Positions 4,366 to 62,013 of a stretch of DNA of 64,000 bases are shown here, one piece after another. A program made the position numbers and the translations under genes. The stretch's first letter is position 1; each line of letters starts with the position of its first letter. The stretch lies in contig NC_088309.1 of the NCBI RefSeq assembly GCF_910592395.1, positions 8,618,501 through 8,682,500 on the forward strand, given 5' to 3'. This stretch comes from Lineus longissimus. Its lineage: Eukaryota > Nemertea > Pilidiophora > Heteronemertea > Lineidae. The notes beneath the pieces are model-generated. The model did not search any database, was not told the DNA's origin, and worked only from the letters and a program-made list of their open reading frames with translations.

Positions 4366-4474
4366 TATCCTTTGACACACGTTTTATTTGGAATGTAATA
4401 AATTGTCCCTGTCTCTCACACAAGTTGGACTACGTCTTCAAAAAGTTATTTTGCCGTTCACGACGCCATCAAAA
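4366..4474. promoter_or_regulatory. K2P 5' flank/5' UTR up to the duplication border
   Basis: Only about 110 bases separate the K2P start codon from the left border of the duplicated block. The stretch must hold at least part of the K2P 5' untranslated region. An A/T-rich AAATAAAAC lies about 20 bases upstream of the ATG, too close to act as a normal TATA box for this start. No promoter can be called with confidence. Confidence 0.3.
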
Positions 4475-5730: not shown

Positions 5731-6066
5731 AGCGTTTGGAAAGTGTCAAAATAGAAAAATGCAGCAACATATTTCTTCTGATTACCAGAGAAAGTCGATT
5801 CGTTAATTATTGCTTCCAGAGATGGCACCGACTGCACTCCAGGCAGCCGGAATGAGCGCACGTCTCCTATGGCTAATGGCGTACTCCACTAATCGGTATC
5901 CCTGGCTCGGCAGTCAATTAATCTGATTATTTTTCAAATATGAAGGAATTCTTCTTGGCAATTTTGCTTAGGTCTACAGTTGATCTTTATGATAAATAGG
6001 TTATTTCGCACAAACATGGTCTTGATTATAATCGGCCTGTTGAAAAACATGCACGATAACACTAAT
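5731..6066. other. 336-bp segment present only in duplication unit 1
   Basis: In unit 2 the flanks join directly at about 14417 (GGTTAAAT then TTCATTTGG). Here 336 bases intervene. No clear terminal inverted repeat or target-site duplication is visible, so insertion in unit 1 cannot be told from deletion in unit 2. Just upstream, about 5647-5735 contains two direct CCGGTTAAA-NN-GCGT motifs roughly 73 bases apart. Confidence 0.7.
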
Positions 6067-6337
6067 TTCATTTGACGTCCTGCGGGCAACGCATTCGGGG
6101 AATTATTTGGAAATCAGGCAATAAGACCCATTGACGCCGAATTTGTGTCCTTGACTTTCATCTTGAAAAATATGAAGAATTAAAAGATACATCATAGAGT
6201 TGCTATCGAGAATTATCACTTAAACATATCTATATGAAGCCCTAACTATGTATTGGGACGAGAGGAGAATCATTGAAGAATGTTTTAAGGAATAATGCTT
6301 TTTACGGCGGGGTGATGAAACCTAAGCCTAATGTACG

Positions 6338-6343
6338 TTTATT
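6338..6343 (-). promoter_or_regulatory. AATAAA polyadenylation signal, PAN gene copy 1
   Basis: The minus strand reads AATAAA 17 bases downstream of the TGA of the copy-1 PAN gene, which supports the adjacent exon as the true 3' end. The same signal is kept in copy 2. Confidence 0.6.
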
Positions 6344-6360
6344 TTCCACTCACAAACAGA

Positions 6361-14687: not shown

Positions 14688-14693
14688 TTTATT
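14688..14693 (-). promoter_or_regulatory. AATAAA polyadenylation signal, PAN gene copy 2
   Basis: Minus-strand AATAAA 17 bases past the TGA of the copy-2 PAN gene, conserved with copy 1. Confidence 0.6.
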
Positions 14694-14710
14694 TTCCACT
14701 CACAAACAGA

Positions 14711-16951: not shown

Positions 16952-18528
16952 TGCCTCCACTATCTATATGTTCTGTGAATAATAAATCTTAAAATATCAA
17001 CATGGGAATCGGACATCAACACGAAGTGAGATAGGTAATTCTCATCGATAGAGTAGGCAACAAAATCGAGTTATGGAGACTTTGTCTTTTGACTTTTCCT
17101 GGAGTTTTTCCACTTGTCATCGATACCAGTAGTATAATAACGTTATGACATACGCAGATGATAAGTCTTATATTCAAAGATTTTTTAAGTGGGATTTGTC
17201 CCAGAGAATATTTTGACGAATGGACGAGAACTAAAAACCGAAAGAGAATGTGGAAGACACAAATTTTACTTACATGATGATATTTTAAGAACGCCTTTTT
17301 CGATATGGTGAACAGTCTGCACCTACGTCACCACCGTTGTACCAATCGTGAATTAGTTACTTTTTTTATGAATATTAACAGCAGTGTATGACGGCTTATT
17401 ATAAACCGCGAGATGCAGAATGCGAAAATGCGAGATGCCAACCTCGTTGAGAGTACAGTCCGCCACAGGATGTATTGCAATATGGAACCTCAAAGGCGAA
17501 CACCCATGAGACCAAGGCTGTAGTAGGGAGCTGTCCTTGTTTTGATTGGCCCATTGAAATAGACTCCGCTGTGCGATGTGTGGAATTTAACATAATCTAT
17601 AACCTAGTTTCGATGGTCAGACTACCCCGCGCTATTTTTAGGGATGACCAGACGTTCACCAGGTGCATGCCCTGTGTTATCGGTCAATCTTGTGTATAGT
17701 GACTTGTGCCGCCAGGCGTAACGTGAAAATAATCTTGATACATGCAGCATCCTGAAATTTTATACACACAGTATATCTTGATAAGTTGCAAAAACCTTTG
17801 TGGTCAAGATGAACATGTAGTTGCATGTAACCTTTGTATTGTCTTCGGCCCGACTATCATTGAATGGAGAAGTGGACAGCAGCGGCAGAAATGGTGATTG
17901 TCATGGTCCAGGGAAGTAGAAAATCTCGTGGCAGAAAATATTAATTACTCATCTCGCGATCCCCATCTCACGGTTTATCATGAGCCGTGTATGACCGGTC
18001 ATACACTGATGATATTCAGTTCCAAAGTAGGTCATTGCTTATTCATCTCGATAAAGTGTTTACATCTTTGTAAGCATCACATCTACATAGAGATGCGTTT
18101 TCCTACAGGCGATTCAGCGACACACGGGCATATCATACACTCAGGCCTATCGCCATGTACCTGTGTGGCGGGGAAATGGGCGGGGGAACAATGATTATAC
18201 CGGAAAAATCCTTCGGGGGCCACGCACAAGCCATGGCATGCATGCTTATAGGCCCACTCGTCGAGTATTTTGCCATGTACATATTACCAACTAGAACACC
18301 TCATATCATATTATATATTTATTATAGGATTTCGACTCCAGTATTGGCATAACATAGAATACAGTCGGAATGAATGGAAAAGATTCAAATATAAAAGATT
18401 ATGTCCAACTACAAAAGTCGCTCAGTTCGACCATATTTTGAAAGTTGGTGTTCTGTGTGTATACGTACAGTTGCATCTAGTGTCCAAGCAAAACCAAGAC
18501 ATTTTGTTACGTCATTCGAGTGATAGCA

Positions 18529-20292
18529 AATTTCCATTGATAACATCTAGATGACCATGCTGCCATCCCTGGCGTTTGTCAAATTTCGTTTATCAATAGG
18601 CAAGTCCATGTTTATCTGCTTGGGGTTTAAACGATGTCGATTTGTTGTATGTAGCTAACTCAGTCTTATAACCACCCACTTGCGGTTTGAACCTCTCATC
18701 AAACACGGGAAAGAAGGGAAATTCAGATTTTGATCACTACGCCTCGTACGGCAACGCCTCCCATGCAGTTTGCGGCTGTAGTACTCCTGTTCAAGTTGTT
18801 GTCAACTTAGCAATAGACGCATTACATGCATAAACTCTAGATTGTATTGAATAAAGCATAAAGAATTCATATTGATTTTGCTTTGACACCGCTTGTAACT
18901 TAGTACATCATCACACCAATCCTTAGCAAGAAAACGAACATACGCATTTGTCAACAACTAGCCTACACCAAATAAAACAATCAGAATTCTATATTACATC
19001 TACTGACATATACATCTTCCAAACTATATTTTCCAGTTGACAGATGCCAATTGCAATATTATAAAACTGCTACTAAGGATTCCTATGATACCGTTCCAAT
19101 TTAACTATGAGCTATAATGTGAACTGAGCCAAAAAGATTACATATTGAGAGTAGGGTGCTCAGTTTCTTTTACATTTGACTGTTAACGTGACTTTTTGCG
19201 ACAGTAGCGGATTCCACGCCGTTTTGGCATTGTGGATTGTTAGGATCGGGGTTAATCAAATACATGCTGTTTAAACTGCATGGATTCGAACGCCGTTTGA
19301 AATAACGCACTTCGATATTTTGAACACCATTTGCCGCGCAACTTCGTCTTCGCAGAATTAACTTCCTGCAGCGGGTATCTGGTGCTCTTGACTTAATAAA
19401 AACTCTAGATTCGTCGCACATTCCCTACTCTCGCTCTTCGATCCAACTCACACTTAACCAGCTGTTGATAGAGAAAATCTAGAGGCTCGAAAGATAAACA
19501 TTATTTTGTCTTAAGGCAAAGTATACATCTAGTATACACTGCATCTATTACTATGTTCTTAAGATCAATCCCATCCCAAAGAAATATCTATACAGACACT
19601 GAAAGTATTACAGCTTTTATGGAAAAGACACAGTGAATTAGCCACATTTTTCAAAATAAGGTACAAACAATGGAATGTAAGAAGAATTTTGCCCGAGTGG
19701 GCATTTATAATGAATACACCAATTGCGTGCATTGCAAAGACAAAAGTGCAACATTAAGAAACCTCAACAAAATAGACATTGTGCGTAGTGCAGGATGTAA
19801 TAGCTTACTAGCACTGGGAGCAAACCGAATCATTCCAAAGTAAATTTTGTCAAAATATATTTTCGTTTCATATCAATTCAACAATGAGGTATGGACGAGT
19901 TAAGCCTTTTTCCACTCCCAGTTCATCACATCTAATTTCACCACTTGTTTCAACATAACACAATCATCCAATAGAATCGTCAACAAATGGATGCTTCATG
20001 TGTATTTTAGGCACATTATGTATAAACTCCCTGGTTTGGTTTAAAACGGTTAAGGATACGGCAAGTTTATTATTTGATTAAATAACGCCATACAAAGGCA
20101 CTTTGGAATGATAAAGTCAATGAAGTCAGATCAAATGTGCTTGAAAACAGGTTTTTGCCAAAAAACGACGCGGGTGGCAATACAATAAACATTAACACTA
20201 TACGAGACCAGCGAAGTCAGGATAGAAATATATAATGCCGTGAAATATATATATACAGCAAAATTGAAAAAAGCCACTGATATCAAGCACAG
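18529..20292. other. Intergenic region, one weak ORF
   Basis: This separates the duplicated block from the 3' end of the EF-hand gene. It is A/T-rich with no splice-supported coding exon. The only frame worth noting is 19170-19421, listed separately. Confidence 0.5.
19170..19421 (-). other. 83-codon Cys-containing ORF, unknown, low confidence
   Basis: An ATG-initiated frame of 83 codons with six cysteines and many basic residues (for example CRKLILRRRSC and YFKRRSNPC). An in-frame TAG lies two codons before the ATG, no signal peptide is visible, and no clear acceptor or polyadenylation signal flanks it. I do not recognise a domain. It could be a fragment of a Cys-rich extracellular protein, or chance. 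Confidence 0.2.
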
Positions 20293-20758: not shown

Positions 20759-20875
20759 TTAGTGCTTCGAGAATAGGAGACCGAGTTCTTCTCTATTTAA
20801 CTTTCCATCCTTGTTAGTATCACACACTTCCAGTATAATTTTACTTTGTTCTTGTACGCGCGTAAGGTCGATGGT
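20759..20875 (-). CDS. EF-hand gene, last coding exon (EF6 and C-terminus)
   Basis: 117 nt, 38 residues and TAA. The acceptor is TTTTTTGTTTCAG and the entry phase is 0. It encodes TIDLTRVQEQSKIILEV, then the EF6 loop DTNKDGKLNREE and the tail LGLLFSKH. All liganding positions (D1, N3, D5, G6, L8, N9, E12) are filled, so EF6 should bind calcium. Confidence 0.95.
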   Translation of the reverse strand, partial: TIDLTRVQEQSKIILEVCDTNKDGKLNREELGLLFSKH

Positions 20876-23800
20876 CTGAAACAAAAAAGGGGCTTCCAGT
20901 TGAGGTATTTGACGGATTTAACTCGTCACGAAAGTAAAAAGGGACATTGCAGACACGAGATAGTACGCCCCTGTTCACGGGCCTCTTTCAAGAATGCTGC
21001 CATCTTGTATCAAACTCGTCAACGACTCGAGAAACCCCAAAGCAGTAGAAAGGTGACCGATAAGGAAAAGGAGGACATTGGTCACAAATATACAATACTG
21101 TGCCGATGTTCCTAAAGGCGCAATGTGACTAATGTATGCAAATTGCAAATCACTCCTTCCAATTATATATATTTGTGTCTTTTGCACGTCTTGACATTCA
21201 CATCAAACCGATTCAATGTATGGTCTTCGTAACACAGTGCCACACGTCCAATTAATTTTTCTCAAATAAATGATCTAAAACAGGGTTGGTATCATAAATT
21301 TGTTGATCGTTTTTATCAATCACTGCGATTAATAGATTACACCTACCGATCCTTCTCGCTCCAGTACATCCTTCATTAAGGCTATGAGCTCTTCGCTCTC
21401 AATCTCACCATTTCCATCCTGTAATTAAGACATAAGAACTTTGCTGCAACGCAACGCCGACAAGCGATTTTTATTGCAAATATCTGCGATATGTTTGCTG
21501 CGATATTAGCCATGAACATTTGATGGTGGTGCCATCGCATTGAGCATGTACTAGTACCAGGCCTATTAAGAGTATTGTCTTCGTCTTTTTCTCACCATTA
21601 GGCAGACTGGTAGGTTGTTTAGTATAATTCATAATGGCATGGCATGGTCAACTCGAAATATTGGATTAGGCGTCTTCCTAATGCCTTACGCATTTCAGAA
21701 ATGGTGTTATAGCGAATGGTCCGTTCTTACCCTGTCATAGTGCGAAAATATGTCATTGAAGACCTCCTTCGAAAGCTGTAATAAAAATAATTGGACATTA
21801 CTGATTTTTGTACATCATTGAGGCGAGAAAATGTAAATTGTGAATTTTATATCCATTTCGTATGGATGTTCACTTATACCCTTCTTCGCTAGTAATTTAG
21901 GCATACTGATTTTTTTCGATCGGGGGAATTATTCGGAATGATGATATTCAGTGATACTAGCACAATATTCAACGGACGTGTCTGTCAATTATAATAAAGC
22001 CCTGTGTTACGTTTGATTTCAAATTTTGACCTTGACTTTAAATGTACTGAGATAGGAACTATGATAACCGGCCAGTCCAAAGAAAATGTGTCACAATACG
22101 TACGCTCTTTTCCTTGCTGGCGAACTGGCAAAGGAAGTTTTCTTCGACGGGCAATAGTCTGAAAAATGCATTAGTCACTAATTTATGTTACACTTCTTGG
22201 CCATTTTGATCGTGTATCACAATCACATCGAAGATTTGACTTAAATCAAGAATAAACAAGAGCATGGAATCAGTGGATGTACCGGTAATTAAAGAGTAGA
22301 ATATATAGTGATAAACATATTCATAAGAATTAAACAAACATCGCATTAAATAATTCAGAGGAAGCTAATTATATACTCGAATACAAAGCATGGGAACAAC
22401 TGAGGTATCAGCGGGACTCTGACCAGCGCAGCAGCGACTCAGTCCACCTCGCCAAAAGTCTCGAGCGTTTTCCTTAAAAAGTTCTTGATCACACCGGCAA
22501 CAAGTTGGCATTAGTTTGTTCGTTTGTTTTCAGTCCACTTTTACTCTAAGACTTTTACTATGATACTTGAATCGCAACAATACAGTCAACTTCGTTGGAA
22601 ATGTACAAAGTAAGTGACCATGCCGATTAGGGAAAAAAATTCAGAAAAATACTGATCAAAGAAAACGTAAGCAAGACGTCGTAGTGAATAAAGATGTCAG
22701 TACATTTACGTTCATGTGCAGATAGTTCTCAGGCAATTTACAAGACGAGGAATTATATGCATTTGAAAGATAGACATAGAATTTCCCTTTCAACTAAAAC
22801 GTATAAAGAATGCGAAGATGATGAATTCGGTAATGATAAGAAGTAAAATGAATATAAATTGAGATTATTATTCTTCAAGTGAACGATTTGATATTATGGA
22901 CAGAATTGTCTTAAAGCATATACGTACACTGAACCAGCAAGTTCTTACACTCTACATACTCCCGCTCTACGTGCTCTGTATAATGGCAAAGTCTTAGCCT
23001 TTAAAGGCACATGTCGTTCGTGCTTATTGTATGTTCTCGTGGCTCAGTTGAAATAGAAATAAACCTTGCCATACTGAAGTCTACAAGCAAATTCGATGAA
23101 GCCTGGCATTTACAGCGGCAGAGTTGAATATCATATTCACTACATATTACACAAATATGTTTTTATTCAAGTTTAATTTCCAAATATATTTGAACGAACA
23201 GAAAACAAAGATGTATGAGAACATGTACCACTACCGTTATCCTCTTTTTAAAAACAGGGGAGCCATCTACTGAGGAAACGGGGGTAGATGACAACTCATC
23301 TTTCCTGTCACAAAGGAGAGCATATTATCTTGCACGTCGTGTCTGTTTCTTCCAAAAATAACACTGGTTTAATATTTCTTTTGCTTCTTTTCCATGGTTA
23401 CATGCTTGGACACCCTTTATTGTATTTATCAATATGAATCCTAATCGGGAGTTAATATCAGTCCGTGCGACCAAACATCACCGTACCCGATCAAGTCATA
23501 GTTCTACGATAGCATATACCAGAATTTTATGATAGCGTTTAATGCATCTGGCATCCCGCCTAAGGAATAGAGATGTGTGCAAATAAGATCCGGTCAAAGG
23601 GTTCAAGGGATACTTTCAAAAATTATTTCAAAAAGGCATGTCTTTGAGCAAATAATGTTTTGCAAGTATCCACTGATGATAAAGCATGTCCTTATCATTT
23701 TTGAACCATTTGTCCCAATAATACAAGGCGCTAGAAACATTGTACCACCTGCCAGACTAACGAATAATATAAATGATAATTCTCTGGGAATTATATTGAA

Positions 23801-26800
23801 CTTGGTATTTCGGGAGTTAACCCATATCAAAACAAGAGTACGGAGATATCTCCCCACAACAGATGCTGCAAAATCCCGAATGTAGCAAATGCAGTAAGAA
23901 GTTCACACACGCAGCGAAAGTCTACAATAAGACCAGTAAAATGCACATAGCAGATATACAGATGGTTATATACTTTGTCACCGGTACAATGTGTTTAGCA
24001 TCATGTAATAGTATTCGTGCCAGATTTACCATGCTAAATGGTCGAAAGAATGGCATGAGTGACTTTGTCAATGTTTTCATATGTGTATTAAAGCAACCAC
24101 ATCAGCACGTGACAACGTTGCAAATGGGTCCCCTGTATAAGAGCAAGACAGTGCGTCCTTCACGAATGGTGCATAAGTTATGGTAATAAAGGCAGTCTTC
24201 AGCAACCGCCTGTTAGGCAAGTGACAACTAACATGTAGTGTCGATTCGTCTACTGGCTGTGTTATGCCTGAATAGATGAATGTAGGTTAATATAAAGTAG
24301 TCGTTGGCACGAACTGATTGCTACGAAAGCTTACTAATATCTTCCGACGGAAAAAGGTTGTTGTCAATTTTTATGGGCCAGGATGCAGTTGTTACACAAG
24401 TTTTTATTGAATAGGTTTGCAGGTATTTTCAATTAACTGATTTCGACCATTTAGTGTGGATGTAATATGAACGTTTAAAAAATGAAAAATCCGAAGAAGC
24501 GAAGCCTGAGAGCACGAAATCATTACCAAGCTTACTTTGACAATTCTGCCAGTTCGATTTTTCCATCCCTATTGGTATCATACAGTTCAATGATAGTATC
24601 TCGATACCCGTTGATCATTTGTGGATTGATCGCCTGAAAGTGAAGAGACTATTAGAAACGACGACATCTAAACGCTATACTTATGCTAACTTACTTTGAC
24701 AGTTCGGACAGTTCGATCTTGCCATCCTTGTTGGTATCATAGAGGTTTATAATTGTGTGTTTATAGTCACTTATCATTGTAGGGTTGATGGCCTGAAATT
24801 GACAGAGAAAGTAGAATAATGTGCTCTAAGGGTCTAAGGATCTAACTTTCAGCTGTACACGCTTCTACACATTAGGAGATGACGTCACAGAGAGAAACAC
24901 GAACATGCACAAAGAAGACGACTTACCATCGTATCCAATACCAATGCATGCGAAAATATGCTGCGTCGTTTGTGGTCATGCAGTTGGTTAAAAAGTGTAT
25001 ATCTCAACACGTGTTCATGTATTAAGCTTTAAAAAACACTTCTACACTTCCTAAACCTCAAAATGTACGAGGTACATGCATATATCAATACACCGGTGAT
25101 GGATTTTTCGAATCTTTTACTGCTTGTTTTGCTGTTTGTGTTTGGTGGCGAACCACATCTGTGCATGGAGTGTTTTTTTCTATTAACAGACCTGATACTA
25201 AACATAATAATGCATAACAAGTAGTGTTTGATTGATAATAGCTAGCAATGGATTTTACTTGACACACTCATCATGATGTAAGCCTATCTAACCCATCTTG
25301 AAAACCCGGTGACCTCAAAGTATTGTTATCTGCATGTACATGATATCAATCAATTATAAGAAAGGAGGTAGCACTGTCAAATGTTTCTTGAAAGAAAACA
25401 TCTCATCACTTCAAAAAGTGGTGACGATAATGTTTGTACAATATTCTAAAATTGAAAAGATAAATATAGATATAAAACAATATATCTAAATTTTTGACAT
25501 GTCAAGAAAGATCTAGAACATACAGCTATTAATGAAAATACATGTAGTAACACAAACATGAAAATATCTGACTGTGCTGTTAACTAATAATTCTAAAGCG
25601 ATGTACTGTGCTGAAAGTAATGCAATCCATACGTTAAGTGTCGCCTTTACTCGTGAGGGATGCGGAGAGTAATCAAAATGCTGCTCGACTAAATCAGTGG
25701 TTTTGCAGTTCTAAACATGTAAAATGCGATGTATTCGGTGCTTTTCTACGTCGATAGAAAAGGAGCATTGGATATTCTGTTCTTGGTGATTTTCGGTTCT
25801 GACACACCACCAAATGAAAGTTTTGGCACCGTCTAGAGATTCGACATAGCCGACCACATTTCCAACTTTAAAGCCTTCAAGAAAAAGCAATTTAAAATTG
25901 GTATCAATCATAATTAAGTCGAAATTGTCATTGTAGTCAAATGCTCCTTTTCTTTCCTAAATGTCATTTGTAATGAATATAACCATTTTACAATCACCAA
26001 CACTCTTACTAATTGCTAACTCTCTTACACCAACACTCTTACTAACTGCCCAAACACATGGCTCATGAATAAGAAAATATTATAACTCAATTTAGTTCTA
26101 AAGTATTTGCTTTCGGTTGATAAAACATCCCTAAGTCACAAAATCGGCAAGGCCAATACGCATTCTATTAGGGATTGTAAAGAATGCTCCAGCTTCCAAC
26201 TTAACTCTATTTCCCTAATATCTCTAACAGGATATCTTTACACGAAAGGAAAAACATTCCACTCTCTGGCGATCAAAGGACATATATCACAACTGCGTAT
26301 TTGGCAAAGTTTGGCTGTTGACCAACTGTTTGCCTGTTATTTGTACCTGAACTGCGAGAGCTAGTCGACCGATGATGTTGGTGGTTGTCAAATGGCAAAC
26401 TAAATGGAACTGTAGTGTAAACACATGCCATATAACGCAACTACCACTACTGACCAGGAAGAAGCGTCGTGACAGCTTCTTAAAGAGACTCTTGAAAGGT
26501 GAGGTTTGCTTCTTCTCCTTGTCCTGGAAGTATTGCAAATTGCAAGACAATGAAGGCCTAAGGGCACGCTATTTTCAAGCTAAAAGCTAAATTGTGTTAG
26601 GGAATGAATTAGGTCTCACGTGCGATAGCTATACACAGAATGGTCAGCCAGGTTACCCACTGCCATGGCAAAGGTTTTGAAAGGGAAATTAGAAAACGGC
26701 AGTGGTGCATACTTTACATTAAAGACGTAGACACAGGCTTACGTTCCAGATTCAAATGAAAAAATATCGTACACGATTGTGCTGTTTGCTATTCGTATAT

Positions 26801-29800
26801 ATTTGAGAGTGCTATTCGTATATATTCGAGATTAAGTTTAAGGTTAACTTCTTCACAAAACGGGGATTGCTACCGTACAGGTACATGTACATAAGCATCG
26901 AACTGTGCAAGCATCTTGGACCACCGTACCATATACTGGACAAAGGCACATCACATCACATACAAAATAACATTATCTGAGATACACATATTACAAATTT
27001 AATGTTGATCTAAAGAGTGTCTACAGAAGTGTGGCGCGTGTGGTCGACTTATGTCTTAACTATTCAAAAAAACGCAATGTATGATACCAGAATTAATATA
27101 CGAAATGTCATGAACTTAGTAGAAACAGACTTATTCTAAACTTAATAGGGTATTGGCATCTCAATAGGCGACGCTGATTTTTACTGGGGAATGAGTCAAA
27201 ATGACAACGTCAGTCTCTGTCCTATTGTTGCAAATAAAAGTGCTGCCTGAATACTTATTAAAGGTAGGTTCAAAAACCAAAGACTCAAATTCATTTTCTG
27301 AAAAGAAGTGTCATATAAATTTTGGTAAGTGCAGATTTCAAAACAAAGTATGTGAATTGATTTCATTTACCAGAATATCCTGAAAATAAGGATTCTGAGA
27401 GTGAGTTTACTTTTATTTGAACTTATGGTATTCATATTCGAGTAAGTATATGTAAAATAGAAACGAATGAACATTTCCACTAATTATGTGTAAACCTTAC
27501 ATATTTTAACGTTTTCTATCATTATGATAACAGTTTGAATAATCCTCATTTTATCCTAAATTTAGATTTAATTTAAATTTAGTCTAGAAAATTCCATTTT
27601 TATCTTACTTATTTAAAAGTATTTCCAGTTAAATATTCATATTTATGAAACAGAGCATACTTTTTTTTAATCACATTGTCAATGGGTATTAAACTCTCTT
27701 GCCATTACCTCTGTATTGTGCAGCAGCAAGTCCCGTAAGAAGCCTTCAAGTTCATCAATCTCCAAATAACCACTTCTGTCCTGTAAAAAGAAGCAGAGAT
27801 CCTAAAAGTCACGTCTAGTTTTCACCATTTTTGTATCAAACTTGTTCTTTAGTGGCTTTGGTCATATATGGCATAAGCATAGCAAGTTTGATGTGAATGT
27901 TAATATTATTTCAATTCATGTACTTCACCTCGTGTTTAGTCACCACTAACATTGCAAACATGTTATCTTTGATCTGGTGGAAGCACAAATTGAAATTTAG
28001 GCAATGCCTGGTCAGATACATGTATTTGTTCTTCATCAAAATAAAATCATCTAACTACTGTTGACCGGCACTACTCTTTACAGAAGAATTTTAAACAGCA
28101 CACCTTCCAATTACCAGTCAAGCCACGGGGTATATGCTAAACCCTACCTTGTCATAATGGTACCAAATCTTCAAGAACTCAACGGATGTCAACTATATGG
28201 AAAGAAAACAAATAATAACATGACAATATGTCAACAAACAATTCAGTCAGTCAGTCATCAACAATAAATGATATGCAATTTCATAAACATCAAATATTGC
28301 AAACCGTTTCGGATTACTAAGTATTGTTTGGAATACATTACATTTGTATTTCTGCAAGTAATATATTGTTAGTGTTATCTAAATCATACCATTATTACAG
28401 AAAGGTGCAAAATAAAATTATGTACTTTTTTAAAGTAAACCAAAACAGTAAATGAAGAATAAATCTGCATTTGGGAGACACTCGAATTTTCTACAATTAA
28501 ATGAGAAAGTATGTAGGGCGGCTAAGGGCAACAGAAATTTATTAGAGCTATTTGACAACAAGGTGACTTATCACAATGGTGTTACCAGTAATGGGCCACG
28601 ATAGCAAATATTTCTAAAAAACACATTTTAGAGGAGATGAAATGCACTCCTTCAATTTCACCAGTCAGTACAGATCTAGATTCAGACAGGACTACAGAAG
28701 TTCGTAACCAGCATTATCAATGCGATTTGCCACCCTGATATAATGTGACAACCTAAAAGGGTATTTCTGTTAGGTTTACAATAAACAAAGTTAATTATCT
28801 AATAAGAAAACATTATGAAGCTTAATTCTACATTGCAGAGTTCCTCAACTAACTATATTATATGGATATTACAGAAAATAATCTAAGATATTTCATTTTA
28901 TACAGCTAAGGGAAAATATACATTGACTAAAATTTCTTGTTGTTTTTTTTAAATTGATAATGCATAATGCATTTTAATGTGTTATGCATTATCAATTTTA
29001 TTATTACTACTATTATTAAAACAATAGTAGTATATCAAAATGTGCAGTTCAATGTTTTGTCTATTACATGTTGTCAAACCTAATAGGTTAGGAACGTAAT
29101 AAAGAACGACCAAGTCAATTTTCTTTCAATTCAACAAACCACTCACGTCTCATTAAATGTTTTTGAACTGATGATTCTTAAACTAACCAGCAATTCGCCA
29201 AGAGTACTTTCACAGATGTGAAAGAACACTTTTCAATATTCAGCAGGTTAAAAGATCCCTGTGAAATGTTTAAAGGAACGGAATTCTGAAGTAAGGTGAT
29301 AAACGCAACCGAGTAAACAAACAACAATGAACAAACCAAAACAAAACAAAACATTTTAACGAAACGAAAGGCATGTTGAGAGTGGTGAACAACACCTTAA
29401 AACTACATCTAACTGTCACGCTCAGCAGAGATGGCCAGAACTAACTTGAAATATTTCTGAGGATCAAGTGCTAAGATTAAGTGAATCGACTGAGTTTTAT
29501 TTTGACTGGCATCAACTGACTCACTTCAACTATTTTATAGTTGATGGAAACGATGATTTGTAATTGTAACTTTTTTTTCTTAACATAGAAAAGATCAGTA
29601 ATGTATTGAACATTGCCTTACCATCTTGCAGTATGATTTAGTTGATGGTGGTCATAAATCATGGAGTGCACCAGCAAATGGCTTCGATATGTAGTGCAAT
29701 TTAACAGATTAGATGTAGAATACCGTGCAAATTAATGCCACAAGTTCGATATCTGTCTCATGCACATTTCCAAGACCGACTTCTTGGTTAGATAATATAG

Positions 29801-32800
29801 TCATAACACCGCCATGAGATATCAAAATTCTGACCTTTCTGCAACAGACAACAAAACTTAAAACGGAAACAACCAAACTACATACTGAAGCAACACAATG
29901 TCAAACAATATGAAGCAGTAAAACAGGATAAGAAAGTGGGTATAATTATCATGATCAAGGATGACAACAATTATGGTATGACAGTCATGCGATATTGGGG
30001 CTATTCAAGATTGTAATCGGCCACAGGCATTAGTTCAACACACAGAAACTCAATTTAAGTTCAAATCTTATAAATTTCAAAGATGGTTAAAATAATTCGA
30101 CCATTTTTAATAATTGGTCTCTAACGCTAATAATGTTGCAATCTGACCTAATAATAATATGGAATAAAAAGAATTTCCAGGCAATGCAATGCACATTCTT
30201 TGGTCAATGCACATGTTAGTGTTAAAATGAATTAGAAAAAGGAAAACTATCAGGCAACCCACGTGATCATCACTAGATAAAAACAAATGCATACAAGATA
30301 TACTGCAAACAGCCAGATTTCCATGCCTATTTATTTTTGCAATTTGCAAAAGTTATTAAAAATAGAAATTTTCTCACTATTCGCAAAGTCCACGAAAATA
30401 AAACACTTGACAGTTTGCAGTATTCAAGGCGAGCCCAGGAAGTTCTTCAATTCAAGCAATTTCAATACAATCATAATTTCGATAAAACTATCAACACTAT
30501 ATAGACTTAAAACCTCAGAATTAAAGCCTGCTTGAATATTTTCCGATATTGTCCTTTAGGACATGTTATGATAAATAAAATTACCTTCTCTTCAAATATA
30601 TAAAACTCAACTTGGTTAATTTTCATTTTAACTCAATGGTGTCGCAGTTGTAATTTAAACACACTCACACTGCAACGATCGATGGAAACAATGCACTAAT
30701 GGAGAGCATTCATCTTGTTGCCGCCATAGTTGCATTTTATTTGGTTAAAATTCGGGTAATTATGAGTATATCAACAAAAAGATATGCTTTAGACATATTC
30801 AGTTAAACTACTTGAAAATATGACAAGTATCTCACAATTCACGTCTAGTCTAATTGGAAACCTTGATCTTCGTACTCATATTTTGGTGAAGAATACAAAC
30901 ATGTGTCACAAAGTGAGGTGATATCACTCATGTCATTAGTGAAATAATTTTTAAAAATCTATCCACTCGATAATTAAATTTCTACTTTAATCAACTCCAT
31001 ACCCCCCTAAACTGATTATTCATCTTTGAAGATGAAGTAACCAATCTTTCAGGTCGGATTGTTTACACTTTGAAGCCATGCCCCATTGCTTGTGTATTAC
31101 GATGCTTAGTGTAAATTGTTCACAAATCTGGTCTGAAAAAAACTCAAGCAAGTCGTAAATTTTTGTTTGAGCAAGAACTAGTTACTCAGTATTTTCGGCT
31201 GTCAAAGTGGTGTTTATTTTGAAACCACTAGTGAGGCCTAGTCCTAATCCTAAAACTGAAGTTGGCAGCAGTACTGCTTCGAACAGCCAAATCAAGATAT
31301 CCACGTATTTTTTAAGTCAATTGCCTGCAGTTTGTGAGTTATCAATGAACCAATTATAGGCAATATTCTTTAAATAGAATCTTCTGATCAAAAATGATTT
31401 CAACGGAAAATTGTCTCCTGTATATTATTTGCAATGCAACAACAAAAACCAGCTAGACGTCAAGCATGACGCAAACTCAAGCAATGAGGCAGCCAGCGTT
31501 TCCCCTCTCAACCCCTATAAAGGAAAGGTTCATACAAATTTAAAACAAACAATAATGCACCCCAATGCACGGCACATGACAAGGGCATATTTTATATATC
31601 CCAGTTTAGGCTTACACGAGCATCCGATTTACCGCCCATGATAGAGTTCTGAAATTGAACACCGCAACCAATTATTGTACATAATGAATGAAAGAAGAGC
31701 GCTATCTGAAACCACGTTCTACCTTTATTCAAAGTTTTGTCAAGAGAGACTATGCAGGAGGCAAGTGGGCCAGAGTAAACTTCAGCAAGTGGTCGATAGG
31801 TGTGATAATATTTCACAGTAAATAAAAGTTCAGCACTATCTATGCTATTCATGCTTCCTACATAAGAGAGGGCAGTTCTCTGAATTTGCATTGTTGTCAT
31901 TTGAAGACTACTAATCACAACCAACATCACCTGCCTTCTGCCTACGATAGTTTCCCTTCAAAATAGTGAAGTGCATTTGCTGAACATTATATTCGAAACC
32001 TCTTTGTTGGAGGTCAGCTTCATTCGTGCTAAATGCTTTTGCCCTAGCTACGTCTGGTTCCCTTCAACATTCAGAGCTGATTAACCAACTGTTTGAAACT
32101 AATGCTGAAAGATCGAATGATAGGTTTGATGTCAAGTATAATGTTAACAAATGCTACAATCAGTCTTCAACAAAATGTGAACAAAATGATCAACAAGATA
32201 AACACTACTTTACTATCAAATCATTCACTAAATGGTAATTGTGTTTCTAGAAATTGCAAAAGTCACTCATTGCCTACGTATTGTGTTTCTAGAAATAACA
32301 CCATCCACTTATTGGCTATGTACGAAATAGGTATTGTGTTTCTAGATATATTATTATTACATGTAAACCAACTGCACTGTGTATACACTAGGTGAATGCT
32401 CTATTCATCTGATTCAGCATCAGGATATAATTGTCCGATGCACTACATCGTGTATGTGACAATGAAAAGTTCCATGCTGAAACGAGTAAAAGACGCTATA
32501 TTGCCAGAAATTACAACACACGTTCATAGTAATTGTGATGTAACATAATGTTATAGTTACTCACAATTATTGCCGTCCATATAATCACAATTACATGTAG
32601 GGCTATTGTTAACAGGTAATACGCCGTATCGGACCTGTTCCTGCCTATGTGAGCAACTTGTGAGGGGATTTTTGCAAATTCCCCGAGGCGTCAACGTGAA
32701 CGCCTATTCCATTGTTCGACAAAGTTATCGGGAAGTCGAACAATGGGATAGGCGTTTACTTTGGCGTTTCGAAAACTCCCTGTAATGACTTGTGTCGAAA

Positions 32801-35800: not shown

Positions 35801-38800
35801 CATTTATCGTTCGGAATTTGCGCTATTTTTGCATCTAAAATTTGCTCGGCAGCGGCGATAAGTCACCCTGAGCCTGAGGAATCACCCTTTAACATCATGT
35901 AGTAGCAAATGGTGACACTGACTGTGAACTGAAATTGACTTCGTTGGTTATTTACTCTATTGTTCAATGAGTGTTAATCGCATCCAAAAAATAGTGGAAT
36001 TAAAGATTTGGTGTCCATCCCTAAAATTAACAATTACATTGATAGCCCAAATTTCGGCCTAAGCACTTCCAGAAACGACTACCCTGCCTTACCTTTTTCT
36101 TCCCAAGACATAATCTAAAGCAATCGATGCAGCCCCCAAGATGAGATGATAGCACTTGCTGAGTTCAGAATCATTTCGTCCGCATTAACAACTCGGTCAT
36201 GAATAAGAAACGCGGCTAGTACAAGTAGTACAAGTATATAGTACAAGTATGATAAGTGTGATGCATCTACGTATAAAAGATACAGCCTAAGTATATGAAA
36301 GGTACAGTGTAAATACATTGCGCTACTCCTCCCTCTAATACTAATAGTACAAATATGGCAAAGAATCTGCGTGTGATGTAATGTATGTGTATAATACATA
36401 CCGCCACTTCATTTCGGAATTCGTTCAGGAAGTTGTCCTCTGTAGGCAGCATCAAGGCCAGTTCGTTCATTTCAAGTTTACCATCGAAGTTTGTGTCGTA
36501 TTTTTCAAGCTGTAAAATCAAAATAATGTCAAAGATGTCGAAGTGGGCAGTGATTGCCTCTTCGAATCGGCAGAACCTACTCTTTATTCTCGATTGGTTA
36601 TCACAACTCTCCCCATCTCCAACCCATCCCCACAGTATGCCTTGTCACAAAGAAAATTGATGTGCTGATTTGAGTATCTGCATATAGGACCCTAAAAAGC
36701 GAAAAACGGCAGCATTTGTATTTTTCTATAGGATAATGAAGTTACATTTGACTTTCGTAGGATCATCTCTGGAAAGATAAGCAACTCTTGGATACCTTTA
36801 TAACGATCGGTTATCACTAGTTTATAGTTGGCACTATGAAATGCAGTCTTCGATTTTAGGGCGGAGTACAAGATGTTTTGTGAGGTCTGGAATTAGATGT
36901 TTCACGACGAGGCAATTATCGAAGTCACAAATCCACAAGTGCCGCATGCTGCATTATACTGCTTGATACAATTATTTGCCAGCTGATTTCTGGTTTTCAC
37001 AGTACACACCAGATTCCGCTATGGATTTCATAGACAAGTGATGGTAGCAATATATTCCCGCCTCCCAGTTTTTATTGTGACTGGGTTAGTCGTTTACTGG
37101 GAAATAAACCAAACAGCATAAAAAGATAGCAAAGAAACAAATTAGTCGAGGTAATTTCAGCAGGAACCTTTGTTTTATTGTCACAAACATGACAAACAAA
37201 GGGATGCATTGGCCATCAATGCCATTATAGTTTTCAAATACAATGTAACGTATTAAGTGCTCCGTGGTCACTTCCGCAATTATCATAAACTGGTTGTTAT
37301 GGTTATGGCGGGCAACCTTTCGATCCAATGCCTACTCTTATAAATTTTTGATGCTGCAGTCCACGTATATTGAAGTCCGTTCGATTTAACCTTGATTGTT
37401 AATGCATTCACGAAGTTGCAGTAGTGTAACGGTGCATGTTGCGCCCAGCTATGCAAACCACTGTTTTCATGTCAGTTTCGCAGCACGCTTCCCGTTATAC
37501 AAAATACAAGGGGTTTTTCCGTTATGAAATTCACAGTAAACTGACGTAATCAGCTGTTTAACAGGGCCCGGAGATTGGAAACAGCGACTTATCAATACCC
37601 CTTATACATACGGATAAAACTATGTTGAAAGAGAACGATTTTTGAATACAATTCTATCCGTATACGTTTAAGGATCCGTGATAAGTCCCTGATCTCAAGT
37701 TGCCGTATTTTCTACTTACCACCTTCTGTTTCAGGTCCCGTATTTCTTCGGGGCTTGGGCTGGGGTTTTCAGTGTCCTTCAACACGTCAATCAGTAGGGC
37801 CTAGAAGAGAACAACGAATGATATTTTTCGACCAGTAGGACTGGCTTCTTGAGTTCTTTTTTATGTAGCGGTGGCTTTACATTTTTGCCACTATGAAGCC
37901 ATCGATATAAAACAACATTGTTGCAGATAATCGTCTTGCATGACTACAGAGTTGCTTTTCAAGCAGTTTTCGGGCAAGGAGCGATGACGACATGCCTAAA
38001 TGCGACATTTATTTACTACTGATACATGTAGTTCTTGTGAATTGTTACTCTTGTCCAATCTATCACAAACTAAATTGTATTTATTCAAGGGTGCCTCTGT
38101 CAATTGCAGGATATTGGGGCTAGACCAACTCTAACAATGTAGTAGTTGCTGTGATTTACGTATAATCTCATTGCTATCAACTCGGCTCGTGTTTGCACCT
38201 TTCGGATATTCATCAACTTACGTCCAATTCGGTTTTGTCGATGTGACCGTTGCCATCTCTGTCGTATTTCTTGAACAACTGAAAAATATATGAAGAACAT
38301 TTTATGAAGAGTATTAAGATTTCAAAAGCATTCACCAAGTTGTTCTCAAATATTATATTAACTGAAATAGAAAAGATATGGTTAGGTATGTATTCAAAAT
38401 GCTAGTCGTGGTAAACCGAGGCAAAACATCTTAATTGTGTCAGCATGTTGCTGTCGATGTTGAGTTGTAAATCTTAAAAAAGTGCATAAACGGGGAAAGC
38501 AAATGGGAGGTATCTCGTAAAGAATCCCCATCAGGCATCGAGGTAAATACCAAATCAAAGCTTTCATTAGCGTAGCTTGCCAGTGTAACCTAACATAGAA
38601 TGATCAACCAACTGCGGTTCTGCAGGACTGAAATGCAAGGTTTCAACGAAATTCTGATGTTTCCATTTGCCCTGAATACATATTCCACCAAGCGTCAAGC
38701 CACAGACCAGCATTTAAAAACAAACTATTTCAATGGTTTTAACACGATTTAGAATTCAGAGCTGTTGGTCAGGCTAACGATCCCGAGAACAGAATGGTCT

Positions 38801-59800: not shown

Positions 59801-62013
59801 TTTATGTTGCCGCTTAAGTAGCTGCTTTATAATATTATGGGTTTTTTTCTATCTCAGTCTCTTCTTTGTGTTGGTTCTTTATGCGCATTCTGAATGAACG
59901 GACAAAAGAAATTGTAATCGAGGTATAAAAGGGAACATCTTTGCAAAAATACTCCTTGTTTTTTAAGAAAGAGCTAAATAGAGTAGTGAGAAATGTTGGC
60001 AATGTTTTGCTGCTCTAACTACCCGTAGGTGTTCATCCCATGTTTCAAATGCGCACAATAAGCCCTGTGGCATCCATTGCGCTTGCCTTGACTCACTTTC
60101 TGGAAATGGGACTGACGACAGTTAAAAATAGCATTCATGGCTTCGTGAGAACGTACATTATTGTCTAAGAAAATAAAGCAGTCGTAGAAGAAAAAGCAAT
60201 TTTAACTAGGAAAGATGGTACATGTACATACTAGCGCAATCGACTGAGTCACTAGTTAAAGCGAGCTTAGCGTATTCTTGTAGCATCGTATATTTTATCA
60301 TGGAAAGTCATTGACGCCAGACCCATAACAATTGCTTCAACAATAGATTGAGCTTCGGATTACATGGTAACACGTCTGTAGATCGTAGACCACGATCCGA
60401 TCCGATTCAGCAAGACTCGGCACTAATGAGACCATGTTGCATTTGAATTATTCACACGAACAAGCTTTGATTGAGGGCCAGAATTAACGCACGTCTTTTC
60501 ACTGCTCCCATGCACATGATACAATGCGCGTTTTATTTTGAAATAAATCTTATTTAAAATACTGAAAGAAATATCGTAATGCACATCGTAATTTAAATGA
60601 TGCTAATGCAACACTGATTCGCTTCGGTGGTAATGGAGCAATCACAATGCTTTGAAACACCCACGCTGTATTACAACATCATGCACGTCAAGAAATTCAT
60701 CCCCCATATGGTGAAGTGCTAGCTTACAGAACATCCTTCTTGCGTAAATACAGAATCAATTATTCAAGATGTTTTGACTACATTTATAGCCACACAAGGT
60801 AAATGTACCCCAAGTATAAGAGCGGTGCTGTATGAAGTGTTGATTATTGATGTTTGGAAACTATGACATGGCGTATATGTCTTGTAATGAGAGTAAGCTG
60901 GGAATTACCTCTGATAATCGTCCACCTTTCATCCACCAGTCACTCTAGAAAGCGCCTATCGAACTCATCTAGGCAGACCTTATTATTTCAAAAGTGGTAC
61001 GAACTTTGAGCAGTAGCAATATGATTATTACATTCTATCATCGTAATATGATTTCCACACAATTTTGCTCCTTGACATCACTCCCATTTCCACCTGCTCC
61101 TTCTATCAATGTAGTGCCTCGGGGTATTAATGAACATGCAATGTTGCAATTTCCAACTGTATCTCCAAGGCATTGGAAGCTAATTGTTGTCAGAATGATA
61201 CGCCGCATTCTATGGAGGAGATTGCTATTGAGGAATGCTGATGTTGATGCTCGTTATGTGAAACTTGGTGTTTGTGCTAGAAGTGCTGACCTGAGCACTA
61301 AACGTCGGTCGAACGTAACAACACTTAAAAGTGCGCAATTCAACACCTCCCATGTCAACTGACCCGCACTCTTAAAACGAAAGCGAGCTTTGGCGCTTTT
61401 GAAGCTTTAAACAACATATGCGGGCACATAATTACGCATGAAAAAACACTGACGGCTTGCGCTGGTGTTTCATACACCTGAAAAACCTTATTGGGTAATG
61501 ATTGCATACTGTTTCCGCCGATAAAGGTGTAAACCTCATAAATATCTCTCCTCCGGAGTCTCTGGTTTTCTCCTACTTTACATTACAAATAGCCCAATAC
61601 TGTTGATACAGCTAATAATATCCTAGCTGACGCTCAGCCCTCTACTCAAATAGAATGTATATACACCTTCTGAAGAAGCAACATGAATGAAAGATTTGAA
61701 TTGATTTGAATTCAACATATTCTTAGTGTTTTTCACGCTCAACAATGAAATGGTTCTATATTGTTTTAACAAATACACTAAATCCTACTACAAAAATACA
61801 CTAAAGTTAAAACATTTTAGCAACATTCTGATGCTCGACCTAGAATATTTAGACCTGCAAAACATCAAGAGTAGATAAAGTCTTGAGTTCCTACATAAAA
61901 ATATTAATCAATATCTATGATCGAAACTTGGTTGATAATTTAAAATGTTTACTTACAGCCACGAACTGTGCAGATGTCAGTTTTCCCTTGCCGGAAAATG
62001 CGTTGCCTAATGA
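20759..62013 (-). CDS. Six-EF-hand calcium-binding protein (calbindin/calretinin/secretagogin family), N-terminus missing
   Basis: Twelve coding exons on the minus strand, listed separately, join in frame to 268 residues plus stop when one of two EF4 exons is used. Family members have about 260-275 residues, so only a short N-terminal exon is missing. The loops are all canonical: EF1 DRDGNGHIDKTE, EF2 DTNFDGKLEMNE, EF3 DKDRSGYLEIDE, EF4 DTNKDGKIELSE or DTNRDGKIELAE, EF5 DRDGNGEIESEE, EF6 DTNKDGKLNREE. The linkers LPTEDNFL after EF2 and LLPVEENFL after EF4 are hallmarks of this family. In vertebrate calbindin and calretinin EF6 is degenerate; here EF6 and its CDTNKDGK context look more like secretagogin, while EF2 looks calretinin-like, so orthology needs a tree. 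Such proteins are cytosolic calcium buffers and sensors in neurons and endocrine cells. EF3 and EF5 share 45+72-nt exon splits, a trace of internal duplication. Confidence 0.95.
21347..21418 (-). CDS. EF-hand gene exon, second part of EF5
   Basis: 72 nt, phase 0 in and out, AG acceptor and GTAGGT donor. It starts inside the EF5 loop (DGNGEIESEE) and continues with the exiting helix LIALMKDVLEREGS. It has the same length and the same split point as the EF3 exon at 27709-27780. Confidence 0.95.
21731..21775 (-). CDS. EF-hand gene exon, first part of EF5
   Basis: 45 nt, phase 0 in and out, donor GTAAGA. It encodes LSKEVFNDIFSHYDR, the entering helix and first two loop residues of EF5. It is homologous in length and sequence to the 45-nt EF3 exon at 28148-28192. 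Confidence 0.95.
22104..22158 (-). CDS. EF-hand gene exon, EF4-EF5 linker
   Basis: 55 nt, entry phase 2, exit phase 0. Joined to the final AA of either EF4 exon, its first A completes a Lys codon. It then encodes LLPVEENFLCQFASKEKS, the family's conserved linker after EF4. Donor is GTACGT. Its phase 2 entry fits both EF4 alternatives equally. Confidence 0.95.
22159..24535 (-). other. EF-hand gene intron, nothing else seen
   Basis: About 2.4 kb of A/T-rich intron between the linker exon and EF4 exon b. The frame at 23863-24186 on the plus strand has a CSKCSKKF string but no zinc-finger spacing. No third EF4-like exon is present. Confidence 0.7.
24536..24633 (-). CDS. EF4 alternative exon b (mutually exclusive candidate)
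   Basis: 98 nt between a CACTTTCAG acceptor and the donor AAA|GTAAGC, phase 0 in and phase 2 out. It encodes AINPQMINGYRDTIIEL, the loop DTNRDGKIELAE and LSK. It is the downstream partner of exon a, with 25 of 33 residues identical and the same length and phases. It reads straight into the linker exon at 22158. Confidence 0.95.
24634..24694 (-). other. 61-nt intron between the two EF4 exons
   Basis: A very short intron with a good donor (GTAAGTTAGC), a possible branch site (TCTAATAG) and a polypyrimidine-AG end (TCTCTTCACTTTCAG). Introns near this size limit can block splicing of the flanking exons to each other by steric hindrance, one known way to enforce mutually exclusive use. Confidence 0.85.
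24695..24792 (-). CDS. EF4 alternative exon a (mutually exclusive candidate)
   Basis: 98 nt between a CAATTTCAG acceptor and the donor AAA|GTAAGT, phase 0 in and phase 2 out. It encodes AINPTMISDYKHTIINL, the loop DTNKDGKIELSE and LSK. Relative to exon b the differences are T/Q, S/N, D/G, K/R, H/D and N/E in the entering helix and K/R and S/A in the loop. All calcium ligands are kept in both. Using both exons would add 98 nt and shift the frame. Confidence 0.95.
25711..25956 (-). other. Candidate orphan or alternative terminal exon, unknown
   Basis: An 82-codon frame begins right after a GACATTTAG acceptor at phase 0 and ends in TAG. The peptide is protein-like, with a TNFKLLFLEGFKVGNVVGY stretch followed by FIWWCV, and I recognise no family. 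It is on the same strand and phase as the EF3 donor at 27709, so it could be an alternative last exon that truncates the calcium protein after EF3. No AATAAA was seen close downstream, which weakens the idea. Confidence 0.22.
25995..26060. repeat. Two-copy 33-bp tandem repeat
   Basis: CACCAACACTCTTACTAA occurs at 25995 and, with one change, at 26028 (period 33), within an EF-hand gene intron. Confidence 0.8.
26788..26833. repeat. Two-copy 23-bp tandem repeat
   Basis: TGCTATTCGTATATATT is followed by TGAGAG, then repeated with small changes, period 23. Confidence 0.8.
27709..27780 (-). CDS. EF-hand gene exon, second part of EF3
   Basis: 72 nt, phase 0 in and out, acceptor CTTTTTACAG, donor GTAATG. 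It encodes DRSGYLEIDELEGFLRDL followed by LLHNTE. Joined to the preceding exon it completes the EF3 loop DKDRSGYLEIDE. Confidence 0.95.
28148..28192 (-). CDS. EF-hand gene exon, first part of EF3
   Basis: 45 nt, phase 0 in and out, acceptor CCATATAG, donor GTAGGG. It encodes LTSVEFLKIWYHYDK, a typical LTS-x-EF entering helix of this family, and ends two residues into the calcium loop. Confidence 0.95.
28951..28998. repeat. Perfect 17-bp inverted repeat, 14-bp loop
   Basis: AAATTGATAATGCATAA at 28951-28967 is exactly reverse-complemented at 28982-28998. A run of ATT/ACT trinucleotides follows immediately. It could be the remnant of a small foldback element. Confidence 0.85.
32238..32349 (+). 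repeat. Three dispersed copies of a 17-mer
   Basis: ATTGTGTTTCTAGAAAT occurs at 32238 and 32280 and, with one change, at 32333. Spacings of 42 and 53 bases suggest a decayed short tandem array. Confidence 0.7.
32685..32770. repeat. Foldback element, 36-bp arms, 14-bp loop
   Basis: Arms 32685-32720 and 32735-32770 pair at about 30 of 36 positions. The inner part is close to perfect (CGCCTATTCCATTGTTCGAC against GTCGAACAATGGGATAGGCG). Most mismatches are transitions, as expected for an ageing palindrome or MITE. Confidence 0.85.
36402..36509 (-). CDS. EF-hand gene exon, EF2 and linker
   Basis: 108 nt, phase 0 in and out, acceptor TGATTTTACAG, donor GTATGT. It encodes LEKY, the loop DTNFDGKLEMNE, then LALMLPTEDNFLNEFRNEVA. 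The LALMLPTEDNFL part is the calbindin/calretinin signature after EF2. Confidence 0.95.
36510..37719 (-). other. 1.2-kb EF-hand gene intron
   Basis: Intron between the EF1-EF2 linker exon and the EF2 exon. No repeat or nested gene was seen. Confidence 0.7.
37720..37800 (-). CDS. EF-hand gene exon, EF1-EF2 linker helices
   Basis: 81 nt, phase 0 in and out, acceptor CTTCTAG, donor GTAAGT. It encodes ALLIDVLKDTENPSPSPEE and then IRDLKQKV: the exiting helix of EF1, a Pro/Ser-rich turn and the entering helix of EF2. Confidence 0.93.
38222..38278 (-). CDS. EF-hand gene exon, EF1
   Basis: 57 nt, phase 0 in and out, acceptor ATTTTTCAG, donor GTAAGT. It encodes LFKKY followed by the full loop DRDGNGHIDKTE and LD. 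All ligands are present. Confidence 0.95.
47787..47798 (+). repeat. Run of 12 G
   Basis: An uninterrupted G12 tract within GGGCGAGGGG...GATCC. It is a possible length polymorphism or G-quadruplex-prone site, and a likely place for sequencing error. Confidence 0.9.
47840..48010 (+). mobile_element. Probable degenerate tRNA-derived SINE
   Basis: AGGCGTCCGCCTCATAACCTGAAGGTCAAAAGTTGTAGACCC resembles the anticodon-to-T-loop part of tRNA-derived SINE heads, with a decayed B box. It is followed by a tail with CTTGCTTGGTGTCTGGCGTT, a type of sequence I associate with invertebrate SINEs. No clear 3' tail or target-site duplication was seen. Confidence 0.3.
49249..49471. mobile_element. Foldback/MITE-like element, 94-bp arms, 36-bp loop
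   Basis: Arms 49249-49341 and 49378-49471 are reverse complements with only two substitutions and one single-base indel. The inner ~65 bases pair perfectly. Within each arm the motif CATGCTTCAC occurs twice and the near-palindrome GGTTCACTCGTGAACC occurs once, giving nested folding. No coding capacity and no evident target-site duplication. The near-perfect arms imply recent insertion, gene conversion between arms, or selection on the hairpin. Confidence 0.9.
51365..51480 (+). mobile_element. Probable tRNA-derived SINE remnant
   Basis: CAATGGGACAGCGTCCGG, then GTTATCAGAAGGCCGTGGGTTCGAGGCT, reads like an A-box region followed by a near-consensus B box (GGTTCGANNCC, one mismatch) with a D-loop to anticodon-like spacing. 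The following CTTGACGAGGCTGGGGAATGAAAG resembles a SINE body. It does not fold as a complete tRNA by eye. Confidence 0.4.
52840..52858. repeat. Small perfect hairpin
   Basis: CATGCGAG-TGT-CTCGCATG, an 8-bp perfect inverted repeat with a 3-base loop in a GC-richer patch. Confidence 0.85.
56228..56418 (-). other. Candidate Cys-rich terminal exon, unknown, low confidence
   Basis: After a GTGGGTTTCAG acceptor, a phase 1 frame runs 63 codons to TGA. It encodes a peptide with six cysteines spaced C-x8-C-x11-C-x6-C-x8-CC and ending in a double Cys. A second frame (start at about 56409) is also open with hydrophobic content. No signal-peptide exon with a matching phase was found upstream on the minus strand, and no AATAAA is close, so this is only a lead. 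Confidence 0.18.
61957..62013 (-). CDS. EF-hand gene, first visible coding exon (N-terminal segment)
   Basis: 57 nt, phase 0 in and out, acceptor CTTTCTTTGCAG, donor GTAAGT. It encodes SLGNAFSGKGKLTSAQFVA. The LTSAQF string matches the LTASQF/LSANQF start of EF1 in this family. It contains no Met, so an upstream exon must supply the start codon. Confidence 0.92.

Follow-up and report, generated by a model that had tools for sequence, protein, structure and literature searches.

A hexa-EF-hand calbindin gene of the ribbon worm Lineus longissimus contains a tandem-duplicated exon encoding EF-hand 4 (EF4). To judge from the sequence, the two copies very probably (about 0.87) constitute a mutually exclusive pair, whose use would yield proteins differing at eight EF4 residues. 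Calbindins are classic neuronal calcium buffers.

The window, i.e. the whole 64,000-nt stretch of DNA analyzed here, is a chromosome-2 sequence (C2:8618501-8682500). The genome searched comprises 391,118,348 bases in 30 contigs, of which chromosome 2 accounts for 29,188,318 bases; according to an excerpt of the assembly report (PMC8593623), the assembly has 32 scaffolds totalling 391 Mb, and chromosome 2 measures 29.19 Mb. Fourteen coding exons of the gene were located on the minus strand of the window. They are listed here in the order of transcription, together with the short intron that separates the two EF4 exons, and X4 and X2 denote the two readable isoforms.

61957..62013, minus strand: N-terminal coding exon, SLGNAFSGKGKLTSAQFVA; matches the X4 and X2 proteins
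38222..38278, minus strand: EF1 loop exon; matches the X4 and X2 proteins
37720..37800, minus strand: EF1-EF2 linker exon; matches the X4 and X2 proteins
36402..36509, minus strand: EF2 exon; matches the X4 and X2 proteins
31616..31648, minus strand: 33-nt exon between EF2 and EF3, NSIMGGKSDAR; in both readable isoforms
28148..28192, minus strand: first EF3 exon, LTSVEFLKIWYHYDK; matches the X4 and X2 proteins
27709..27780, minus strand: second EF3 exon, DRSGYLE...HNTE, with the upstream splice donor common to the variants; matches X4 and X2
26455..26523, minus strand: 69-nt in-frame exon between EF3 and EF4, DKEKKQTSPFKSLFKKLSRRFFL; in X2, not in X4
24695..24792, minus strand: EF4 exon a (EF4a), 98 nt, AINPTMISDYKHTIINLYDTNKDGKIELSELS plus 2 bases; isoform X4
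24634..24694, minus strand: 61-nt intron between EF4a and EF4b, with a ctaat branch-point consensus
24536..24633, minus strand: EF4 exon b (EF4b), 98 nt, AINPQMINGYRDTIIELYDTNRDGKIELAELS plus 2 bases; isoform X2
22104..22158, minus strand: linker exon after EF4, common to both isoforms, LLPVEENFLCQFASKEKS; matches X4 and X2
21731..21775, minus strand: first EF5 exon; matches the X4 and X2 proteins
21347..21418, minus strand: second EF5 exon; matches the X4 and X2 proteins
20759..20875, minus strand: EF6 and stop codon; matches the X4 and X2 proteins

Spliced in silico, the exons of the window give products identical to the NCBI X4 and X2 proteins from residue 4 onward. Isoform X4 (P0001, named “calbindin-32-like”, 282 aa) is composed of 12 exons, with EF4a and without the 69-nt exon, while X2 (P0002, “calretinin-like”, 305 aa) is composed of 13, with the 69-nt exon and EF4b. 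Pattern searches for the first coding exon did not locate the one encoding the initial three residues (MAS). The NCBI isoform names imply at least four isoforms, two of which (X4 and X2) were readable, P0002 being a cluster of three members; the “isoform X” naming presumably denotes predicted RefSeq models. Each EF4 exon occurs alone in one full-length isoform (2/2 readable models, both predicted). Assignment to the hexa-EF-hand family was made on the basis of six loops in the protein and matches to EF-hand Pfam models, and PDB sequence matches included calbindin (1.2e-47) and secretagogin (1.4e-40; partial query). A search of the genome (391 Mb, E <= 0.001) with EF4b returned two matches only, EF4b itself and EF4a, and no further copy of the gene was found at this threshold with either P0001 or EF4b as the query. 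The 33-nt exon has no counterpart in the nine relatives aligned, and it may be optional too.

The preliminary description, prepared from the DNA letters alone, had placed two adjacent homologous 98-nt EF4 exons in this gene. Both are present on the minus strand at those positions, share 25 of 33 residues, have equal phases (entered in phase 0 and left after two codon bases) and are each flanked by consensus splice sites (..tttcag and gtaag(t/c)), all as it had been reported. Being adjacent, homologous, equal in phase and compatible in their flanks, they qualify as tandem exons. Of their 98 bases 71 are identical and 27 differ; within the 32 whole codons, 12 differences are silent and eight change a residue. 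Among ungapped 98-base matches in the window, exon EF6 came next (52/98), and then other places with at most 46/98. Chance likeness was rejected, since the pair reaches 71/98, against no more than 46/98 at places outside the EF-hand exons of the gene. For EF4a and EF4b the NG86 method gave a dN of 0.16 with a saturated, non-computable dS, and YN00 gave a dN of 0.21 and a dS of 1.46 (dN/dS ~0.15). When the 14 exon peptides were compared with the window (tblastn, E <= 0.05), a close duplicate was found for EF4 only, and weaker matches linked EF2, EF4 and EF6 with their linkers, i.e. an ancient repeat. Little similarity is left in the introns around the pair (22/60 bases before and 27/60 after the exons match in an ungapped comparison that includes the splice consensus), so the duplication is probably old. 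EF4a and EF4b are about equally close to five hand-picked relatives, with which they share 21/22, 20/21, 16/16, 15/14 and 17/14 of 33 residues (a/b, respectively).

The translations bear out the prediction that no calcium ligand is lost: loop residues D1, N3, D5, K7, E9 and E12 are equal in both versions, and the loop differs at two places only, as described earlier, namely positions 4 (K/R) and 11 (S/A). The six other residue changes are confined to the entering helix and the residues preceding it. A difference in EF4 charge had also been put forward; it is present but small, the net charge being -1 for EF4a and -2 for EF4b, i.e. one unit.

The frame logic set out in the preliminary description was reproduced by in-silico splicing. 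Joined to the linker exon at 22158, EF4a and EF4b both read in frame through to the stop codon, and inclusion of both or of neither causes a frameshift and an early stop; the frame thus admits one EF4 exon per productive mRNA. When EF4b follows EF4a, five out-of-frame codons precede a stop. Skipping of both exons gives 25 shifted residues before a stop, and the same shifted tail and stop result when the 69-nt exon is included without EF4.

The intron between the two exons might itself prevent their joining, as the preliminary description suggested. It contains a ctaat branch-point consensus with its A at +43 from the donor, 18 nt before the 3′ splice site, and a second branch-point match just 7 nt from the 3′ splice site. 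According to an excerpt of PMC7969005, ~50 nt is the limit below which donor and branch-point factors cannot assemble together; the putative branch point at +43, recognized by consensus only, would fall below this limit, cited in a paper on OGDH, should it hold in Lineus, and any branch point of this intron must in any case lie within its 61 nt. Intron lengths in the genome were sampled between myosin-head exons (neighboring pairs with a gap of at most 8000 bases, within profile overlap limits). All 40 sampled introns exceed 61 nt, with approximate lengths of about 113 to 3034 nt, in a sample that represents one gene family and was drawn by a method that can miss very short introns. A splice search on 16 of the myosin pairs solved 14, the shortest best-scoring intron being 113 nt, and for the two pairs without a splice solution the intron estimates are 114 and 142 nt. 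One myosin match reads through ~96 additional bases; these may represent another intron of about that length. Since the sampled introns are longer and the branch-point consensus lies at +43, steric exclusion by the 61-nt intron is plausible in this genome. Across the 257 nt of the pair region, predicted RNA folding does not exceed that of shuffled sequences (z 0.94; 166/200 fold as well or better).

We propose that the 61-nt intron would block splicing of EF4a to EF4b first, its branch point lying too close to the 5′ splice site for both snRNPs, and that frameshift and mRNA decay would remove any double or skipped product as a second safeguard. For this enforcing step, exclusion by frameshift and decay alone, with the 61-nt intron spliced normally, is a possible but doubtful account. 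It agrees with the fact that introns of ~60 nt are efficiently spliced in some animals, such as Drosophila; the greater (approximate) length of all 40 sampled introns speaks against it, as does the position of the sole branch-point consensus at the usual distance from the acceptor, 43 nt from the donor. The choice between EF4a and EF4b could also be linked to the upstream 69-nt exon, EF4a being used without it and EF4b with it. Such linkage, compatible with the main explanation, corresponds to the composition of the two readable isoforms (a/minus in X4, b/plus in X2), but these are just two visible models and the three-member cluster P0002 may hold other combinations, so we regard it as rather unlikely.

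That either EF4 exon is a degenerating duplicate, or a poison exon serving mainly to reduce protein output by way of frameshift and mRNA decay, is highly improbable. The early stops produced by inclusion of both exons or of neither are what such level control would entail. Against this, both exons are open, with intact ligands, consensus splice sites and a dN/dS of ~0.15; each is used in an annotated full-length isoform, and their similar closeness to the five hand-picked relatives points the same way.

The AlphaFold model of P0002 (pLDDT 79, pTM 0.61) is closest to secretagogin, with a TM by query of 0.51-0.59 and an rmsd of 6.7-11 Å across the five best rows; calbindin D28k follows at a lower rank (0.30-0.32), and the overall superposition of the model on secretagogin is loose. 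An excerpt of PMC11032447 states that domains B (EF3-EF4) and C of secretagogin change shape upon calcium binding and that SNAP-25 and syntaxin-4 peptides occupy a groove in domain C. Since the groove lies in domain C, the idea that the EF4 swap alters it, which had assumed SNAP-25 binding by EF3-EF4, was dropped. The first four EF-hands of calretinin are arranged as two highly cooperative pairs (excerpt of PMC3913827). Because every ligand is kept in both versions, and in view of these properties of secretagogin domain B and of calretinin pairing, the most likely effect of the EF4 exchange would be to tune cooperativity, kinetics or a contact made by domain B. It would not turn calcium binding off; rather, the ligand-sparing versions would adjust the EF3-EF4 lobe (domain B) in its affinity, its kinetics or its contacts.

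The 69-nt exon (26523-26455, minus strand), which the preliminary description does not mention, differs between X2 and X4. It is in frame (phase 0-0) and its peptide contains eight K/R and two D/E residues; the host protein is acidic (35 K/R and 56 D/E in X4). Its donor, CTG/gtcagt, departs from the consensus and in this respect appears to resemble those of many regulated exons. For comparisons with relatives we used 218 proteins listed from three protein searches, the third of which contributed the best 120 of 592 matches. Among these listed proteins the 69-nt exon peptide was found only in P0002, the best local score elsewhere being 39, at a different place, versus 116. In four other listed proteins the EF3-EF4 stretch is at least 11 residues longer than that of X4: those of P0090, P0116 and P0126 look like gene-model errors, and the fourth, at 43, is probably that of Seison P0103, which has an unrelated lysine-rich insert there. 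An amphipathic helix was considered and rejected, as the hydrophobic moment of the peptide was reached by 11.7% of shuffles; with this moment unremarkable, only the basic charge stands. By eye, its spacing would fit a 1-5-8-14 calmodulin-binding pattern. This part of the P0002 model has mostly pLDDT values below 50 (residues 160-176), with a short predicted helix. The basic exon could act as a second dial on the EF3-EF4 lobe.

A second hexa-EF-hand gene is present in L. longissimus on contig C11 (~C11:3660836-3706864, L009-L013), and it matches Mytilus calbindin-32 better than the window gene does. Its EF4 loop is encoded in a 56-nt exon (LQLFDQNRDGKLQLSEMA plus 2 bases), whereas the window gene holds the whole of EF4 in one 98-nt exon, and its EF3 loop is encoded in a 57-nt exon (VWKQFDRDNSGYIDADELK). 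A scan of the C11 gene for additional, equally long EF3 or EF4 exons gave one copy of each, and a concealed duplicate was rejected. In an unrooted tree of 47 proteins, with the C11 gene left out, the window gene grouped with cnidarian and further proteins (19 rows, 99/97), its closest placement within this group being weak (93/61). Mollusc, flatworm, rotifer and arthropod calbindin-32 proteins formed another group (22 rows, 99/99). The window gene thus lies outside the arthropod/mollusc calbindin-32 group in this tree and was not recovered as an orthologue of protostome calbindin-32 (Cbp53E).

Comparison of the 218 listed proteins gave 52 rows in which two proteins differ in one block. Those used comprise one Lineus, seven decapod, 37 Mytilus-type (many of them cross-species pairs) and one Gigantopelta row; six were set aside (four, plus one Seison and one duck) and taken as different genes or model errors. 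No other nemertean protein is named among the matches listed. In decapod calbindin-32, isoforms of Homarus (X3/X4), Panulirus (X3/X4) and Procambarus (X5/X2) differ at eight EF3 residues only, and the Penaeus chinensis model P0089 contains both EF3 versions in tandem. The alternative EF3 type occurs in at least 7 and the main type in at least 15 of the 218 proteins among the matches listed, P0089 being counted in both. Like the Lineus pair, the decapod swap affects one EF-hand block of the same family by eight substitutions, but it concerns EF3 instead of EF4 and loop positions 5 and 9 differ. The decapod unit of 19 residues (57 nt inferred) keeps the frame, unlike the 98-nt exons of Lineus.

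In Mytilus californianus, M. trossulus, M. galloprovincialis and M. edulis, calbindin-32-like isoforms (X3-X6) differ at four EF4 residues only. Models of M. coruscus and M. edulis (P0150 and P0152) contain one EF4 version and then the final part of the other, and two Mytilus-like ENA contigs of 1.1 and 1.3 kb (P0151 and P0163) contain one version each. Since contigs so short carry a whole 307-residue frame, they look like transcripts. As in Lineus, the same EF-hand is involved and the isoforms are identical except for an EF4 block of equal length (QLFDRNKDGKLQLSEMAK / KLFDRNGDGKLQFSELAK). The Mytilus swap differs from it in belonging to another gene lineage in the tree, in comprising four substitutions, not eight, and in its extent, as the block falls in the 56-nt half-EF4 exon of the C11 gene, whereas the Lineus pair encodes the whole of EF4 in 98 nt. 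Both the Mytilus EF4 and the decapod EF3 blocks lie within exon limits of the C11 gene, which supports exon exchange in both groups. The Gigantopelta calbindin-32-like isoforms X1 and X2 (P0176 and P0181) differ by homologous alternative ends of EF6.

The different lineages, the different exon limits and the residues shared by the members of each pair are best read as signs of independent origins, and the Lineus swap on the one hand and those of Mytilus and decapods on the other are probably separate inventions. A shared history blurred by gene conversion or loss is conceivable. We consider it somewhat probable that the hexa-EF-hand family has been a repeated target of exon exchange, arising independently in nemertean EF4, mussel half-exon EF4 and decapod EF3, with invertebrates tuning the middle lobe by splicing where vertebrates have three genes. 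That vertebrates possess three genes of the calbindin family is stated in an excerpt of PMC3913827.

Several other features were distinguished in the window. A 541-aa stop-free frame (10313-11938, minus strand) matches Pfam family Anp1 (PF03452, 163 bits), which is known mainly from fungi. This frame sits between direct repeats, 4474-9807 and 13150-18290, with a further pair at 12956-13155 and 18288-18533; nine matching pieces show 90.8-98.3% identity, and the arrangement looks like a recent segmental duplication. A 202-aa frame (3775-4383, minus strand) has no Pfam match at E <= 0.001, and by eye we take it to resemble the start of a two-pore potassium channel.

The preliminary description knew of no comparable EF4 switch in this family. 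This stands as regards papers, since none reporting an EF-hand swap in calbindin, calretinin, secretagogin or calbindin-32 was found in the open-licence literature searched; it does not extend to sequence records, in which the Mytilus EF4 and decapod EF3 swaps can be seen. The mechanism is already known in kind, EF-hand exons being exchanged in CaV2.1 and alpha-actinin, and what the sequences suggest as new is the EF4 pair of a ribbon-worm calbindin and the recurrence of EF-hand swaps within one family. The following comparisons rely on excerpts of the papers cited. Exons 37a/37b (EFa/EFb) of CaV2.1 encode an EF-hand-like domain and are mutually exclusive, as proposed for the Lineus pair, but belong to the C-terminus of an ion channel, not to a hexa-EF-hand buffer/sensor (PMC12165946). 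In alpha-actinin 1 the alternative EF-hand exons 19a/19b alter calcium binding (PMC4435478); one version loses it, whereas EF4a and EF4b both keep the ligands, and the brain form joins 19a to 19b, which in Lineus would break the frame. Exons 4a/4b of OGDH, which set calcium sensitivity, resemble the Lineus pair in being separated by a short intron; its branch points lie within the steric limit (PMC7969005), as the putative one of Lineus would. OGDH is, however, a metabolic enzyme, and in birds and mammals the intron is 118-131 nt long and its branch points are unusually distant, unlike the 61-nt Lineus intron with its branch-point consensus at an ordinary place. Calretinin CR-22k is, as in Lineus, the product of an alternatively spliced hexa-EF-hand gene, here of vertebrates, but it arises by exon deletion leading to truncation, not by exchange of homologous exons (PMC3913827). 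Two EF4 versions in an otherwise identical protein, together with the likely parallel swaps, would offer ready tests of the effect of ligand-sparing EF-hand substitutions on calcium handling. Convergent tandem exon duplication is documented in many families in an excerpt of PMC9741552, in whose main text the word “calbindin” does not occur; if the present reading is true, a calcium-buffer family would join the genes with this mode of evolution.
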